Positions 1 through 64,000 of a DNA stretch of 64,000 nt are shown one piece after another; the stretch's first letter is position 1; every line of letters starts with the position of its first letter. This stretch comes from Tamlana sp. I1 (GTDB lineage Bacteria > Bacteroidota > Bacteroidia > Flavobacteriales > Flavobacteriaceae). The DNA lies in contig NZ_JACLAF010000006.1 of the NCBI RefSeq assembly GCF_015355625.1, forward strand, positions 1 through 64,000. Reading direction: 5' to 3'. A model generated the notes under the pieces. The model was not told the DNA's origin and did not search any database. It worked only from the letters and a program-made list of their open reading frames with translations. Both the position numbers and the translations under genes were made by a program.

Positions 1-138
1 CTAAACTATTTTATTAATAGAAGTACAAATGCTTCTGCAGAATCCTTTAATGCCAAAATTAAAGCTTTTAGAACGCAGTTCAGAGGCGTGAGAAACGTAA
101 AATTCTTCCTCTATAGATTAACTACTATTTTTGCTTAA
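1..138 (+). pseudogene. C-terminal end of an IS transposase (partial at window edge)
   Basis: An open frame from base 1 to a TAA at 136-138 encodes the last 45 residues of a protein, including the stretch NRSTNASAESFNAKIKAFR followed by FRGVRNVKFFLYRL. I recognise this as the C-terminus of DDE transposases of the ISAon1 type that are common in Bacteroidota. The start lies left of the window, so I cannot tell whether the element is intact; it is typed here as a partial gene. The bases after it up to the tRNA terminator (139-255) hold no gene and presumably contain the right end of the element, but no inverted terminal repeat can be tested without the left end. Confidence 0.65.
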
Positions 139-254
139 TTCTAAAATCCCACAACTTTTGCTCTTGATCCTTGAAACCTTTGATGCTGTTGTTGTAGAAG
201 ATTAAAGGGAATCTAAATAATGGGTATACAACACAACCTAGTTATAATTGCAAA

Positions 255-57515: not shown

Positions 57516-58439
57516 CTAATGGCTAACCTCTAGTTCGTAAAATCGAACCTTGGCATAAGCACCTTTATCTCTAGACTGGAAATAATTACCAGCTTTAAAA
57601 TAATTCTCGAATACTCCCCAACGTTGCATATGAACACTTTCATACACTTTGTATTCGTTTCCGTTGAGAATAATCACCATTTTCCCTTCTGAAATTTGAA
57701 CTTCTAAAGTAAATTTTCTAAAACCTACTTCTTGTTCGAAGTTAAATCCTTCATCATCATCCCAGGCATCTTCATGCAAAATTTCTTCATTTGAAGCTGC
57801 AATGTTTTTCAACACTTTTGTTTTTACTCTTACCTTCCCGTTTTGCCAATAAATTTTCAAAATTGGAGGTGCATTATTATCATCTTCACCAATTAAATCA
57901 CGCTGTTCATTACTTAACCGCCCATGAATTTGCATGATTATGGTTTTATGATATTTGCCTTTGGAATCTTTTGAAATTTCATCCATGGCAATGACACCCT
58001 TCATATTACCGCCATCTTTAAAAGTCCAGTTCGCATTGTTATCTCCTGGAACCATTTGCTCTCTTAGCTCAGATCTGGTATACTTCGTGTTTTTTGTTGT
58101 CGATTCTGTAGGCATGGCGTGAAACACAATAGCCCCTTTTGTAGAATCGATATACATATAAGGTTTTGCAACCTCGTTACTTGCAAAATCTAAAATCTCT
58201 GGCGGTTCAATTTCATAAGGCTTTCCTTTTTCATTAAGCACTGGTAGGGTTACTTTCCAATGACTTAAATCGATATCTGGAAGCTTTACTTTTTTCCGTT
58301 TTTTCTTCTTTTTTTTAGATTTTTTTTCTGTTTTAGCTTTAGTATCTGTATCGCTACTTGTCTTTTCTTGACAAGTAGCGTTTACAGATATGAAAACTAT
58401 AAGTAATAATCCTAAAATTTCAGTTCTAAAATTTTTCAT
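57516..58439 (-). CDS. PL7 family alginate lyase with lysine-rich N-terminal linker
   Basis: A 307-residue exported lyase with a single PL7 jelly-roll domain (about 53-307). The three family motifs are present: RSELRE at 122-127, QIH at 170-172, and YFKAGNYFQ at 280-288. QIH rather than QVH is associated with activity on guluronate-containing alginate. After the signal peptide comes a short acidic stretch, then 14 residues (39-52) of which 12 are Lys or Arg, which could bind the polyanionic substrate or envelope. Cys23 may be a lipid anchor, though the lipobox is poor. It follows the PKD lipoprotein by 36 bases as the last gene of the susCD unit. Confidence 0.92.
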   Translation of the reverse strand: MKNFRTEILGLLLIVFISVNATCQEKTSSDTDTKAKTEKKSKKKKKKRKKVKLPDIDLSHWKVTLPVLNEKGKPYEIEPPEILDFASNEVAKPYMYIDSTKGAIVFHAMPTESTTKNTKYTRSELREQMVPGDNNANWTFKDGGNMKGVIAMDEISKDSKGKYHKTIIMQIHGRLSNEQRDLIGEDDNNAPPILKIYWQNGKVRVKTKVLKNIAASNEEILHEDAWDDDEGFNFEQEVGFRKFTLEVQISEGKMVIILNGNEYKVYESVHMQRWGVFENYFKAGNYFQSRDKGAYAKVRFYELEVSH

Positions 58440-58475: not shown

Positions 58476-59963
58476 CTAAAATCCAGGAGTGATGATGTCT
58501 ATGTTATCATAAAACACTTCATTACTAGAGTCAACTGCATTTATAGCTCTTACATAAATTACAACAATGTCACTTGACGCTTTAAACGTAAATGTATTTG
58601 TAGTAAAAGTATCATTGCTTGCTGAAGATTTATCAGGATTGTAATCGTTAGTGATTACATAATAAGCATCAGATTCAGACATTGGATCTGCATCAATTCC
58701 AGCTTCTGTAGTAATCTCATTATTTAAAATAAAGATTTCAGAATTTATGCCAGGAGCTTCAGATCTAGAATCAATTGTAAAGGTATATTCCACTCCAGGC
58801 TCAACTTTAAGCAATTGATACAATCTACGACAAGGCTCATAAAGTTTAAGACCTCTAGTTTTTGCGCCATTAACATAGTTCCCATCACTAGTAGAACCAG
58901 GCTGTTCATTAGTACAAAAATTATCATCAATATAAGTATTTAATGCCCCGTTATTCCATAAAGCTTGATATGGACTTGGAATTTCACCTAAATTATCGTC
59001 TACTACTGTCGCACCAGGTGTCATATCCCAAGCATCAGCGTTATCTCCTGTATTCCCAATGTATTCATCACCTGTTCCATTAAGCACAATAGCTTTAAAT
59101 GTAGGTTGAACACCTCCAACAGGCACAAAATATGAAACACTTTTAGCAACACCTTCAATATTAGTTGTCGTTAAAGTAACCTCATAAGTTCCTGCGGCAG
59201 CATAAGTATGAGAAGGATTTAATTCCGTTGATGAGTTACCATCACCAAAATCCCAAGCGTGAGTTTCTGCCAAAATTGAAGCATCTGTAAATTGTACTTG
59301 TAAACCAGTTACATTTTCAAATGTAAAATCTGGAACAGTAGATAGTACTAAACCTTCAACTTTTTGAGATACAGAATACGTATCACCAGCAAAATTTGTA
59401 GCAGTTAAAACAACATCATAAGGACCAACATCTTTATACGTATGAATTGGACTGAAACTAGGATCGTTTTCAGTATCTTCATTAGACCATTCGGTAGAAC
59501 TACCATCACCAAAATCCCATACTAAAGACTCGGCTCCAGATGTAGCATTGGTAAAAGTTACTTGTGTATCTTCCACGGCAAAGGTAAAACCAACTGATAT
59601 TGGACCTACTTGAGTAGAATCCTTAGCAATTAACCCATCTGAGCTAGTAGTGGTTAATTTTACATCATACAGACCTCCTTCAGTATAAGTATAATTAGGG
59701 TTAGCCTCATCCGAAGTATTACCATCTCCAAACTCCCACAAATAAGAAGCAGCATCGGTAGAATAGCTTCTAAATATAACAGTTAATTGGTCATCTGCAT
59801 CTAAACTGGTAGTAAACTGAGTACTCGGCTGAATGTTATTCACATTCCCAGAAGGCGGAACAAAAGGTTCGTGTCCATCGTCATAACAAGACACTATCCC
59901 CAACGCCACAAAAATCAGTACAAGCGTACTTTTTGTGTGTTTTTTAATTAAATTATAAATCAT
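58476..59963 (-). CDS. PKD-repeat surface lipoprotein of the alginate locus
   Basis: A 495-residue lipoprotein (LGIVSC, Cys26). Three PKD repeats follow (YLWEFGDGNTSDEANPNYTY; LVWDFGDGSSTEWSNEDTEND; HAWDFGDGNSSTELNPSHTY), each with the WDFGDG core. A C-terminal beta-sandwich of about 200 residues ends YDNIDIITPGF and resembles carbohydrate-binding domains. It sits where surface glycan-binding proteins are found in alginate PULs, between the second PKD lipoprotein and PL7. The substrate is inferred as alginate from context. Confidence 0.85.
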   Translation of the reverse strand: MIYNLIKKHTKSTLVLIFVALGIVSCYDDGHEPFVPPSGNVNNIQPSTQFTTSLDADDQLTVIFRSYSTDAASYLWEFGDGNTSDEANPNYTYTEGGLYDVKLTTTSSDGLIAKDSTQVGPISVGFTFAVEDTQVTFTNATSGAESLVWDFGDGSSTEWSNEDTENDPSFSPIHTYKDVGPYDVVLTATNFAGDTYSVSQKVEGLVLSTVPDFTFENVTGLQVQFTDASILAETHAWDFGDGNSSTELNPSHTYAAAGTYEVTLTTTNIEGVAKSVSYFVPVGGVQPTFKAIVLNGTGDEYIGNTGDNADAWDMTPGATVVDDNLGEIPSPYQALWNNGALNTYIDDNFCTNEQPGSTSDGNYVNGAKTRGLKLYEPCRRLYQLLKVEPGVEYTFTIDSRSEAPGINSEIFILNNEITTEAGIDADPMSESDAYYVITNDYNPDKSSASNDTFTTNTFTFKASSDIVVIYVRAINAVDSSNEVFYDNIDIITPGF

Positions 59964-59976
59964 AATAGTTTAGTTT

Positions 59977-61170
59977 TTATTGTTTTACTGAAATCTCAAA
60001 AGCGTCTAATCTGTATTCATCACCTGAATTAGTTGCAAAAATAATCACAGATTCATTTGTTCCTGCTTCAAAAGTGATGGCATGTTTCTTAAACACATCA
60101 GCTACTCTTCCTTCATTAGTTTCTGTTCTAGAAGCAACAATATTACTAGCTAATAAAGATTCTGCATAAGAAGATGTATTAGGTGTAAGAATTGATAAAG
60201 TCATTTCACCTGGGTTATCTAAGTTAAACGCTGTAAAATATGTAATTACATAAGTAGCTCCTGGTGTAACATCAATTTCTTGATAAGCAACTCTGTCACC
60301 TCCTGATGGAAATTTAGCTGATTGATAGCCTTCTGGTACAGATCCTAACTCTGAATTAGAGTTAATTTGGGGTACAGTAGTACCACCACCAAGAGGACTC
60401 CAAGCAGAATTACTAGGCACTCTCCATGAATCTCTACCATCACCTGTTCCATCGAATAAATCATTATCTTCGAATCCTGCTTCTGAAATTTCAGGAACTG
60501 CTACCGTTGGTATAGCTTGAGCAACAGTAATCGTTTTAAGAGTTTCATCCGATTTCCCTAGGTTATCTGTCACTTTTAAAGTTACATCGTAAACACCTGG
60601 TCCTGGAAATCCAAATATGACTTCACGATCTTGCAAAGTTGCTGGAGGCAAATTTGCAATTTGTTCGTTATAAAAAGCAATAAGAGCAATAGTTTCTTCA
60701 CTACGAGAAGCTTCTGCTTCAGCTTTTTGCGCCTCTAATTTTATTACTTCCTGTTCCATTACTGCCTTTTTAGCAGGGTCTGATTCACAAGGAATTTTAA
60801 ATTCTAATTTATCAATTTCAGACTGAATACCAACAACAGTAGCATCAGCAGCATCAATACTTTGTTCTAAAATTGGTAACTCTTTATTAATAAGTACCAA
60901 ACCGGTATCTGGAGTCACCGTCCAATCATATTGTGTACCATTTACAGCTAAATTTGTTCCAGCTTGGAAAAAATAATCATAATTGGCAGATAACTCCACA
61001 TCATTACAATCGAACTCCGAAGAAGACACATCGCTAAAACTATAAAAAGGTGTTGGACCTGTTTTATCTTCTAAATCTCCAACTTCTGGTAAATCATCAT
61101 TAACACAAGATGCAAAAGATAACAATGCACCTGCTGCGATATACCTTAAATTAAACAAATATTTTTTCAT
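59977..61170 (-). CDS. PKD-like surface lipoprotein with inserted coiled coil (alginate locus)
   Basis: The 397-residue lipoprotein starts MKKYLFNLRYIAAGALLSFASC (Cys22). The open frame extends to 61323, but that part overlaps susD and lacks a signal. One PKD-like domain begins near residue 58 (DVELSANYDYFFQ...YDWTVTPDTG) and finishes near 216 (FGFPGPGVYDVTLKVTDNLGKSDETLKTITV). Between them, about residues 98-172 form two charged heptad-like helices around a short loop with Cys128, predicted as an antiparallel coiled-coil hairpin. A C-terminal domain of about 170 residues resembles that of the next gene. It follows susD and is likely the first glycan-binding protein. Confidence 0.82.
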   Translation of the reverse strand: MKKYLFNLRYIAAGALLSFASCVNDDLPEVGDLEDKTGPTPFYSFSDVSSSEFDCNDVELSANYDYFFQAGTNLAVNGTQYDWTVTPDTGLVLINKELPILEQSIDAADATVVGIQSEIDKLEFKIPCESDPAKKAVMEQEVIKLEAQKAEAEASRSEETIALIAFYNEQIANLPPATLQDREVIFGFPGPGVYDVTLKVTDNLGKSDETLKTITVAQAIPTVAVPEISEAGFEDNDLFDGTGDGRDSWRVPSNSAWSPLGGGTTVPQINSNSELGSVPEGYQSAKFPSGGDRVAYQEIDVTPGATYVITYFTAFNLDNPGEMTLSILTPNTSSYAESLLASNIVASRTETNEGRVADVFKKHAITFEAGTNESVIIFATNSGDEYRLDAFEISVKQ

Positions 61171-61183
61171 AATTTTTAAGTTT

Positions 61184-62731
61184 TTAGTATCCATCATTTT
61201 GATCGTAAAAATTAGGTAAGTTATCTCTCTCTCTTTGTGGGAAAGGAAGGTATTTCTTTGGGCTTGTGTAGAATAAACTATTATCATCAGAGAACTTCTG
61301 TAAAACTTTATCAGCTTCACCAAAACGAATTAAATCGTATAAACGTTGATTTTCGTAAACAAATTCAACTCTTCTCTCGTCTAATAAGGCTTGCTTAGTA
61401 ACTTCAACTTCTGGATCTAAACCAGCTCTCTCACGGACTTCATTAAAAGCAGCTACAGCTCTAGAATCCGTTGTGCTATTATTTCCAGCTAAAATAGCTT
61501 CAGTATATAACAATAACACATCGGCATATCTTAAAACAATCCAGTCGTTATCGCCAATTTCACCTGGCGTAGGGAACTTAGCGTTAAAAGTGTCGTTTGT
61601 TGGAATGGTAGGATTATAAGACAAAGGATCAATACTTCCATAAAATCTTACTGGTTGTAACTCTGGCGTCATCACAGATAAGAAATCTAAAGTAGCAATG
61701 TTTATACCATTAGATGGTCCTTGTAAAGTCATTGCAAAACTGAAAGATTCTGAATCGGTTTGTACTTGACTGTTTAAATCACTATCACTAGTTACGTAAT
61801 TATCACTTAATGCTAAATCATAAGCAATTGCGAAAATTACCTCATCGTTAATCTCACGTGCAGGGCTGTTAACCCACGCTCCATCTGGCACACCGTCTGT
61901 AAAGCCATTGCTATCTAATGCGTTACCAAATACATGTCCATAATTATCAATTAATTTAGCATAATGATCAAATATTGGAATGTTCTCATTAGGTGTTGTA
62001 ATTATACGGTAATCGTACGAATCACTATTATCAACAACAGAAGCTAGTAGTAACTCAGCTTCAGAATAATTAGGAGTTGGTTGACTTAAATAAGCTTTAG
62101 CTGTTAAACAAATAGCTGCACCTGCTGAAGGGCGGTATCTATTTTGTTCTACTCCACTTAAATAAGCAATTGAAGTTTTAAAATCTTCAATAATTTTAGC
62201 ATAAACTTCTGCTTCAGGTAATTGAGGATAATCTAAAGCTTCATCTTTAGTAACATCTAAAACCTTATCGATATAAGGGATATTTTGATAAGCTCTCACT
62301 AAATTAAAGTGAGCTAAAGCACGCATAAAGTAAGCTTCTCCTACTGCATATTGATATTTTTCTGGTGCAAGAAAACGGTTATCTATAATTGTATTTGCGT
62401 GTTTTATTACTGCGTAGTTATTAGAGTAATATGTAGCAACATCACCATTATTTGGGTCGATATCGAAAGCGTTGAAATCGGGATAATTTCCGTTTTCTGA
62501 ATTAGCTCTCACGTTATCCGACCTAAGTTCTGTTAATAAGTATTCATTAGCTGGAACTTTTTGATAAGCATCAAGCACTCCATTTGCTAAAAATTCGAAC
62601 CCATTCTCGGTTTCTAACAGCTCTTCAATTGAAAGCGCCGTAGGATTTGTTAAGTCAAGTTCTTCAGCACAACCCGTTAATAAAGCAGCGACTGAAAAAC
62701 AAGCTATAATGTTTTTATATATCTTTTTCAT
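61184..62731 (-). CDS. susD: SusD/RagB family lipoprotein (alginate locus)
   Basis: A 515-residue lipoprotein (LLTGC, Cys21). The SusD core is clear (AVGEAYFMRALAHFNLVRAYQNIPYIDKVL, AAICLTAKAYLSQ, LRYADVLLLYTEAILAGNNS, FNEVRERAGL, LLDERRVEFVYENQRLYDLIRFGEADKVL). It partners the SusC protein encoded six bases upstream in binding and importing alginate oligosaccharides. Confidence 0.95.
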   Translation of the reverse strand: MKKIYKNIIACFSVAALLTGCAEELDLTNPTALSIEELLETENGFEFLANGVLDAYQKVPANEYLLTELRSDNVRANSENGNYPDFNAFDIDPNNGDVATYYSNNYAVIKHANTIIDNRFLAPEKYQYAVGEAYFMRALAHFNLVRAYQNIPYIDKVLDVTKDEALDYPQLPEAEVYAKIIEDFKTSIAYLSGVEQNRYRPSAGAAICLTAKAYLSQPTPNYSEAELLLASVVDNSDSYDYRIITTPNENIPIFDHYAKLIDNYGHVFGNALDSNGFTDGVPDGAWVNSPAREINDEVIFAIAYDLALSDNYVTSDSDLNSQVQTDSESFSFAMTLQGPSNGINIATLDFLSVMTPELQPVRFYGSIDPLSYNPTIPTNDTFNAKFPTPGEIGDNDWIVLRYADVLLLYTEAILAGNNSTTDSRAVAAFNEVRERAGLDPEVEVTKQALLDERRVEFVYENQRLYDLIRFGEADKVLQKFSDDNSLFYTSPKKYLPFPQRERDNLPNFYDQNDGY

Positions 62732-62737
62732 AATTAA

Positions 62738-64000
62738 TTAAAAATTAAAGTTAATCCCTGCTGAAATTGTTTTTATTACTGGACCATCACCTCTTTGGTA
62801 ACCTGCTGTTAATGGTGTATTCGCATTATCAGATGTTTGACCAGCAGCCTCTGGGTTAAACCCTTCGTAATCTGCAGCAGTAAAGAATAATAAATTCTCA
62901 CCTGTTAGATATAATCTTAATTTGTCAATATTATACTTTGAAGTAAATGATTCTGGTATTGTATAACCAAATGTTATATTTCTTAAAGCAACAAAAGAAG
63001 CGTCTTGAATATGATCATCAGTATATCTTCTATGCACTAACAAATCTCTATCAACAAAATTTGAAACCGCATTTACAGCAGACTCACTAGCATAATACAT
63101 TTGATCTAAATCTGCAACTCTAACTTCACCACCGTGAGACCCTTGGAATTGGAATCCAAAATCTAAGTTTTTATAAACTAATTCTGAATTTACACCCCAC
63201 ATAAAATCAGGATATGGATTACCTAATTCAGTTCTATCATCGCCATCAATAATACCATCGCCATTTAAATCTTTTACGTATACGTGAGCATAATCATTAT
63301 TAAATCTATTAAATGGATTATCTACCCATTCTAAAGGCATCTCTTTTTCATAAACCCAACCATAAAACGATGTTATAGGCTGACCAACGCGAGCAATAAA
63401 TTCTGTAGGTCTAGTGTCTTGATCAATTCTTGAAAGAATCTGATCGTTATTACCTAAACTAACAACTTCGTTTCTGTTTAAAGAAAAGTTACCCGAAGCT
63501 TTCCAACTTAAGTTTTCTGAAGTATAAATTCGTGAACCTACTTCAATTTCAACACCTTCATTTTTAACCTCTCCAATATTTTGAAGCCAGTTATCAGCGC
63601 CATATACTCCTGAAACAGGTGCGAATAAGATTAAGTCTTTACTACTTCTAGTATAATAATCTACACCTAACGTAAATAGGTTTCGTCCAAAAGTAACATC
63701 AAGACCAGGGTTAAACTCTACCAATTGCTCCCAACCTAAATCTTGATTTGCAAGAGTTATAGCTTTTACACCAGATAAACCTTGATAACTTACTGTACTG
63801 AATGACTCTTCAAATCGGTAAAGTGAATTAAAAATATTATTGTCAATTTCGTTAGAACCAGAAACACCATAACTCGCTCTAATTTTTAAGAAACTAATAA
63901 CATCGCTATTAGACAAGAAATCCTCTTTTGAAAGAATCCAACCTGCAGAAGCTGCTGGAAAAAACCCAAATCTTGTGTTGGTACCAAATCTTGTACTACC
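62738..64000 (-). CDS. susC: SusC/RagA TonB-linked transporter (alginate locus), C-terminal part
   Basis: The frame is open from the window edge to the stop at 62738, giving about 420 C-terminal residues of the outer-membrane barrel. Recognisable pieces are RFGTNTRFGFFPAASAGWILS at the edge, IRASYGVSGSNEID, YTRSSKDLIL, the calcium-like loop VKDLNGDGIIDGDDRTELGNPYPDFMWG, and the terminal SAGINFNF with a C-terminal aromatic. The N-terminal plug and any promoter lie outside the window. It heads the susC-susD-PKD-PKD-PL7 unit. Confidence 0.93.
   Translation of the reverse strand, partial: GSTRFGTNTRFGFFPAASAGWILSKEDFLSNSDVISFLKIRASYGVSGSNEIDNNIFNSLYRFEESFSTVSYQGLSGVKAITLANQDLGWEQLVEFNPGLDVTFGRNLFTLGVDYYTRSSKDLILFAPVSGVYGADNWLQNIGEVKNEGVEIEVGSRIYTSENLSWKASGNFSLNRNEVVSLGNNDQILSRIDQDTRPTEFIARVGQPITSFYGWVYEKEMPLEWVDNPFNRFNNDYAHVYVKDLNGDGIIDGDDRTELGNPYPDFMWGVNSELVYKNLDFGFQFQGSHGGEVRVADLDQMYYASESAVNAVSNFVDRDLLVHRRYTDDHIQDASFVALRNITFGYTIPESFTSKYNIDKLRLYLTGENLLFFTAADYEGFNPEAAGQTSDNANTPLTAGYQRGDGPVIKTISAGINFNF

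Follow-up and report, generated by a model that had tools for sequence, protein, structure and literature searches.

A helical insert in the PKD domain of a predicted surface glycan-binding lipoprotein from an alginate locus of Tamlana sp. I1

Described relatives and the alginate locus

In the levan utilisome of Bacteroides thetaiotaomicron, the surface glycan-binding protein (SGBP) joins SusC and the levanase in a rigid unit through its lipidated N-terminal domain, and levan is bound by its C-terminal domain (PMC7618045). Like the lipoprotein described here, the levan SGBP has a lipidated N-terminal Ig-like domain and a C-terminal glycan-binding domain; it works together with SusCD and with a surface enzyme, and docking is shown there, whereas it is proposed here. 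The levan protein differs in having two Ig-like domains and a ThuA-like end, and a helical insert is not mentioned in the available part of that source. SGBP-B of Bacteroides fluxus (PDB 7kv7 and 7kv5) is likewise a PUL surface glycan-binding protein, although its substrate is a different one (laminaritriose in the structure title). Residues 33-118 of 7kv7 match the PKD part of our protein (Z 9.2, 82 aligned residues, rmsd 3.0); these 82 residues fall within a stretch of 86, which leaves no comparable insert in the matched range. The best Foldseek match of our whole model (E 1.5e-9) was PDB 2c26, which we take to be the PKD plus CBM44 module of a Clostridium thermocellum endoglucanase. It shows the same order of a PKD domain followed by a CBM and aligns to the PKD part with Z 9.9, but it is part of a secreted enzyme and is devoid of the insert.

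CHU_1279 has also been described as an SGBP-B-like protein, with two CBM-like domains (PMC12016534). A survey of North Sea Flavobacteriia reported 27 alginate PULs with well-defined alginate SusC and SusD clusters, and the word PKD is absent from its main text as far as available (PMC6298971). Nothing on this lipoprotein was found in the accessible portions of PMC5613140 and PMC13235733. A literature search returned no paper joining alginate SGBP, PKD and coiled-coil, a weak negative with subscription papers mostly outside its coverage.

The window analysed is the whole 64,000-nucleotide stretch of the Tamlana sp. I1 contig NZ_JACLAF010000006.1 (positions 1 to 64,000). The first-pass annotation located the lipoprotein gene correctly at 59977..61170; it lies on the minus strand, with an ATG at 61170 and a stop codon ending at 59977, and encodes 397 aa: a signal peptide with lipobox, a PKD domain with a helical insert and a C-terminal CBM-like domain. 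The signal peptide extends to the lipobox Cys22 (LLSFASC; 61105..61170, minus), which is invariant in 29/29 rows of the homologue alignment. The frame stays open 5' of the ATG as far as a TTG at 61323 (61171-61323, minus), which overlaps the 3' end of susD; of the two start codons, the ATG at 61170 is in better agreement with the signal peptide.

The gene is separated by 13 bases on either side from its neighbours, all on the minus strand. Upstream are SusD, of the same cassette (61184..62731; Pfam SusD_RagB 2e-26), and SusC (62738..64000, cut by the window end), the latter assigned from its place and from long ORFs upstream of SusD in related loci. Downstream follow a second lipoprotein of 495 residues, with three PKD domains and a further C-terminal part (58476..59963; Pfam PKD_4 2.8e-36, three stretches), and a PL7 alginate lyase (57516..58439; Pfam Alginate_lyase2 3.1e-56). 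The closest named relative found belongs to Tamlana agarivorans JW-26 (93%).

The lipobox, the gene adjoining SusC/SusD, the Ig/PKD-like stalk and the CBM-like C-terminal domain are the features by which a protein is called SGBP-B-like, and all of them are present here. In architecture and context the lipoprotein is an SGBP-B-like surface protein of an alginate PUL, with glycan binding as a predicted function. It gave no NCBIfam match up to E 0.1, and its Pfam matches (PKD, PKD_4 and DUF642) were all below cut-off. A sequence search for a solved relative returned PKD stretches, coiled coils and chance-level rows only. The lipoprotein with its insert is real and conserved and has no name in the libraries searched, yet it varies a protein type that is already known.

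A PKD fold interrupted by three helices

The AlphaFold2 model of residues 36-222, based on 33 sequences, had a mean pLDDT of 94.3 (92.8-94.3 in the five models) and a pTM of 0.80. For the whole protein (29 sequences) the mean pLDDT was 76.2 (61.5-68.0 in the other models) and the pTM 0.49; the same elements were present, with a pLDDT of 68-97 in ten-residue blocks over 41-220. In the shorter model, strands 41-47, 50-53, 59-72, 80-86 and 92-94 make up the early part of the PKD fold (residues 41-94; 60889..61050, minus). The predicted insert (residues 97-172; 60655..60882, minus) consists of helices 97-108/110-128, 132-154 and 158-172, and is followed by an ordered return linker (residues 173-182; 60625..60654, minus; pLDDT 94-97) in which L174 and D181 are invariant. 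Strands 183-188, 192-201 and 207-216 form the second part of the fold (residues 183-217; 60520..60624, minus).

Using VIA-align, 82/84 residues of the PKD domain 6aem_A were placed onto model positions 1..184 (Z 10.5, rmsd 2.1 Å), and the PKD domain 4l9d_A gave Z 10.4. Because 82 residues are aligned across this range while about 100 model residues are passed over, the insert is, in the model, a set of three helices that breaks up a single PKD domain. The candidate arrangement of two separate domains joined by helices was ruled out by the 6aem_A alignment, which spans both halves. The initial proposal that helices are inserted within a single PKD fold of a lipoprotein from the alginate locus was therefore borne out by the AlphaFold2 model of 36-222, by VIA-align and by relatives without the insert; the monomer prediction did not yield two domains lacking a continuous PKD fold.

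The PKD assignment is based on the VIA-align re-examination of Foldseek candidates and on homologues. Foldseek itself, run with the 36-222 model, found nothing at E <=0.001, the best match being the PKD domain 4l9d at E 0.037. The Pfam profiles PKD (PF00801; 18.4 bits vs 23.5) and PKD_4 (PF18911; 18.3 vs 27) scored below their cut-offs and covered residues 179-214 only, i.e., the late part of the fold; at E 0.1 they matched 28/29 and 27/29 family members, respectively. The motif WDFGDG, typical of PKD domains, is missing here and replaced by WTVTPDTG, while among the rows without the insert it occurs in 9/11, the remaining two carrying WDYGDG and WDFGDA.

As first noticed, the helices are rich in Ala, Glu and Lys, which make up 41% of residues 97-172 vs 17% of the remaining mature protein. 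Their heptad-like pattern was confirmed by a permutation test. Hydrophobic residues fill 0.87/0.79/0.85 of the a/d cells in helices 1/2/3 vs 0.23/0.13/0.09 of the other positions, with permutation p values of 0.0014, 0.0012 and 0.0036 (helices taken as 97-128, 132-154 and 158-174; the best-scoring of the seven registers was used both for the data and for each shuffle). However, the hydrophobic-moment test was non-significant for helices 1 and 2 on both scales, and for helix 3 it gave p 0.096 on the first scale and 0.0028 on the second, binary one. Helix 1 carries extra conserved hydrophobic residues outside the a/d stripe (I100, A110, V113 and F124), and helix 2 is Ala-rich. The description as a coiled-coil hairpin with a Cys-containing turn stands as regards the helices, but there are three of them and not two, and Cys128 is found at the end of helix 1. 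With an odd number of helices the chain would enter and leave the bundle at opposite ends.

Cys55 (codon 61006..61008, minus) sits in a loop that connects two of the early strands, and Cys128 (codon 60787..60789, minus) is part of the motif EFK[IL]PCE in most rows; apart from the lipid-bearing Cys22 they are the sole Cys residues of the mature protein. The pair is present in 33/33 distinct insert-bearing proteins and in the first PKD of 0/20 insertless relatives (the short row L046, which is a neighbour gene, was left out of the 20). Since the pair is invariant with the insert and missing without it, a disulfide is likely, and it probably pins the end of helix 1 onto the sandwich; the bundle would then lie along the PKD domain. 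The charged residues E123, K125 and E129 beside Cys128 are conserved as well. A Cys further downstream in the chain occurs in 7/20 insertless relatives, and in L033, L034, L062 and L064 a Cys pair is located near the start of the CBM-like domain (e.g., GSTACGT, GRDCWR), not in the PKD domain.

Residues 223-397 (59980..60504, minus) are modelled as a CBM-like beta-sandwich with fold matches to CBM4/16/22/61-type modules and to an alginate-binding CBM. The latter (PDB 8zqf) has the same beta-sandwich as this C-terminal domain (Z 11.3, 152 aligned residues, rmsd 3.6), although it shares 19% identity and did not turn up in the sequence searches, which extended to E 1. Cry protoxin domains headed the VIA-align rows for this half (Z 13.0-13.5), with a porphyran-binding CBM practically level at Z 12.8; such matches reflect a common sandwich and are no proof of function. 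The glycan-binding part is likely this domain, and alginate binding is predicted. Fold matches of the full model cover mainly the C-terminal half, and the lack of PKD rows among them is uninformative.

Distribution of the insert and the SusC/SusD type

The insert was found in 33/33 distinct close relatives including the window protein, the others being 34-91% identical to it within the insert, and residues 97-182 are free of indels in all rows. The comparison with homologues suggested by the first-pass annotation also revealed related lipoproteins without the insert in other alginate loci (L031, L048-L055 and others). They share the post-lipobox linker, which is similar, the same PKD end, the same CBM-like domain and the gene neighbourhood. 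Unlike the window protein, they carry WDFGDG or a close variant in a loop of about 15 residues where it has about 100, their PKD domain is free of Cys, and their SusCD is of another type.

Among 397 sampled genomes of the family, 13 contained an insert-type protein (E <1e-190, full length); the other matches listed start at residue 141 at least, and all but one at residue 165 at least. The tree of the part after residue 187 comprised 53 rows, of which 33 carry the insert, 14 lack it and 6 are fused proteins, and was midpoint-rooted only. The insert rows occupy one side of a branch with SH-aLRT 100, although this branch is long and the tool warns of long branches meeting there. In this sequence-based tree the insert-bearing proteins form one clade, and the ordinary PKD domain of the insertless proteins, rather than a known root, points to a single gain. 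When a profile of the insert was run against 395 genomes sampled from the phylum, the window itself was the single strong match, and the other 13 were weak (E 1.9e-4 to 9.8e-4). The insert as a mobile domain used elsewhere was accordingly discarded as a candidate. One weak match (L086:328-2973, plus strand; E 1.9e-4) is presumably a ClpB-like chaperone, matched probably through its middle coiled coil. Judged from this one of the 13, the weak matches likely represent generic coiled-coil likeness.

The homologues of 640-655 residues (L032, L056, L057, L058, L061 and L063) are fusions. In 6/6 of them a part resembling our lipoprotein is followed by a three-PKD-like part in a single chain, without the insert.

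Gene context was compared in 43 loci, 28 with the insert and 15 without; the latter were picked by us from the insertless places listed in the family scan. Among the matched genes, the order SusC-SusD-lipoprotein-three-PKD-like protein was kept in 28/28 insert loci, and PL7 was seen within the stretch compared in 24/28, one of the four misses (L003) being cut by a contig end. All 15 insertless loci showed the order SusC-SusD-short or fused protein-PL7; in L079, a very distant case, the score against the three-PKD protein is slightly higher.

The two kinds of loci differ clearly in their transporter genes. The lowest SusC/SusD identity within insert loci was 0.67/0.63 and the highest across the two kinds 0.45/0.41 (27 vs 15 distinct rows). 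In contrast, PL7, GntR, MFS and SDR do not separate them, with mean identities of 0.72, 0.72, 0.64 and 0.71 within insert loci and 0.63, 0.71, 0.55 and 0.77 across. On FastTree trees, which cover SusD, PL7, GntR and MFS, the insert label changes once for SusD (42 rows), 4 times for PL7 (38), 7 for GntR (36) and 7 for MFS (36). Five extra stretches occur in the insert-type SusC, four of them 8-15 columns long and the fifth 5 columns, and another five in the insert-type SusD, 66 columns in all; the extra stretches of the other-type SusC/SusD amount to one of 6 and one of 9 columns. In the 43 loci, the insert goes with one SusC/SusD type and not with the PL7, regulator or transporter genes. As the SusC/SusD types split with the insert while the other genes are shared, the SusC-SusD-SGBP cassette seems to be exchanged between alginate loci, with the insert apparently belonging to one cassette type. 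Such co-occurrence can also come from cassette linkage without any contact. Common PL7-GntR-MFS-SDR genes beside clearly different SusC-SusD-SGBP cassettes, as if swapped whole, were observed in the window (58476-64000), L001-L023 and L065-L084.

In 17 insert loci, the distance correlations were 0.82 for insert-SusD, 0.73 for insert-SusC, 0.41 for insert-CBM and 0.12 for insert-PL7, with permutation p 0.001-0.0025 for insert-SusD and insert-SusC given the other genes. The insert-SusD/insert-SusC values were 0.55/0.50 without L083 and 0.11/0.14 without four loci, and for the set lacking the four loci the PKD core gave 0.45 with SusD and 0.59 with SusC, but 0.57 with PL7. Depending on few loci, the correlation is not robust and was rejected as proof of coevolution.

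L030 (1501-2736, minus) and L083 encode an insert-type protein with a divergent anchor domain and a much closer CBM-like domain from about residue 233. Compared window by window with the L004 protein, it shows identities of 0.31-0.59 as far as residue 232 and of 0.93, 0.94 and 0.69-0.76 beyond, although the segment at residue 233 is conserved generally (0.93 also to the protein of Tamlana sp. I1). This protein may be a mosaic. In none of the 28 loci with the insert did SusC and SusD score lower than in L030/L083 (690 and 665 bits).

Possible role of the insert

We favour, with a probability of roughly 0.45, the view that the insert is a helical side-piece stapled to the anchor domain by a disulfide, an interface which would seat the SGBP on its SusCD type through a putative contact. 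The membrane-proximal PKD domain would have taken up the three-helix bundle where the GDG loop usually sits, and a Cys55-Cys128 disulfide would pin the end of helix 1, so that the bundle would lie along the PKD domain as a stiff side-piece. The bundle would then act as a protein-protein interface with the SusCD transporter, and the C-terminal CBM-like domain would hold alginate near the transporter mouth and the PL7 lyase. The co-occurrence of the insert with one SusCD type suggests that the bundle helps to fit the lipoprotein to SusCD, and by analogy with the rigid unit of SusC, levanase and lipidated SGBP domain in the levan utilisome, the PKD-helix domain likely docks. Docking to SusCD was one of the uses first proposed for the insert, and it agrees with the co-occurrence; that interpretation as a whole is partly supported.

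The main rival to docking on the matched SusCD, which we consider the most likely use, is plain stiffening, in our opinion a somewhat doubtful alternative. The helices and the disulfide would lend stability to the stalk formed by the PKD domain, or to its junction with the CBM, without a partner, the SusCD link being a matter of cassette linkage. The a/d stripe of helix 1 together with its additional conserved hydrophobic residues is what a buried central helix would show, the length of the insert is locked, and helices 2 and 3 vary at many of their outward positions, where a docking face would be expected to be conserved. On the other hand, the conserved charged residues near Cys128 would have no obvious packing need, and relatives in the same kind of locus manage without the insert.

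The bundle could instead face the neighbouring three-PKD lipoprotein rather than SusCD, both lipoproteins forming one unit. The constant position of the three-PKD-like gene after the lipoprotein gene and the fused homologues link the two proteins, but the fused chains lack the insert, so the union of the two parts is independent of it. Moreover, insert and three-PKD distances are uncorrelated (-0.07 to 0.21 in five subsets), and we regard this interface as improbable. Least probable of all is a projecting arm or spacer which would raise the binding site or reach the PL7 enzyme, as the first-pass annotation had also envisaged. Helix 1 is about 32 residues long, and the 10-residue linker could just return along a projecting bundle. 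However, the anchor domain carries the insert in a loop at its side and not in the chain that leads on to the CBM, and the invariant Cys pair suggests pinning, which speaks against lifting of the binding site; likewise, PL7 genes are not cleanly split by the presence of the insert, and an arm docking to PL7 is less favoured.

To our knowledge, there are few systems whose structures show how additional SGBPs are matched to a SusCD transporter. As a broader and rather speculative extension of docking to SusCD, which we hold to be unlikely, alginate loci of Flavobacteriaceae would swap SusC-SusD-SGBP whole, the bundle serving as a type-specific key to the extra SusC/SusD stretches while the glycan-binding halves remain changeable. 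If this were true, glycan-binding halves could change on a matched stalk, and the possible mosaic in L030 would be an example. A conserved insert that tracks the SusCD type and not the enzymes would offer a small deletable element for testing SGBP-SusCD matching in alginate-degrading marine bacteria.
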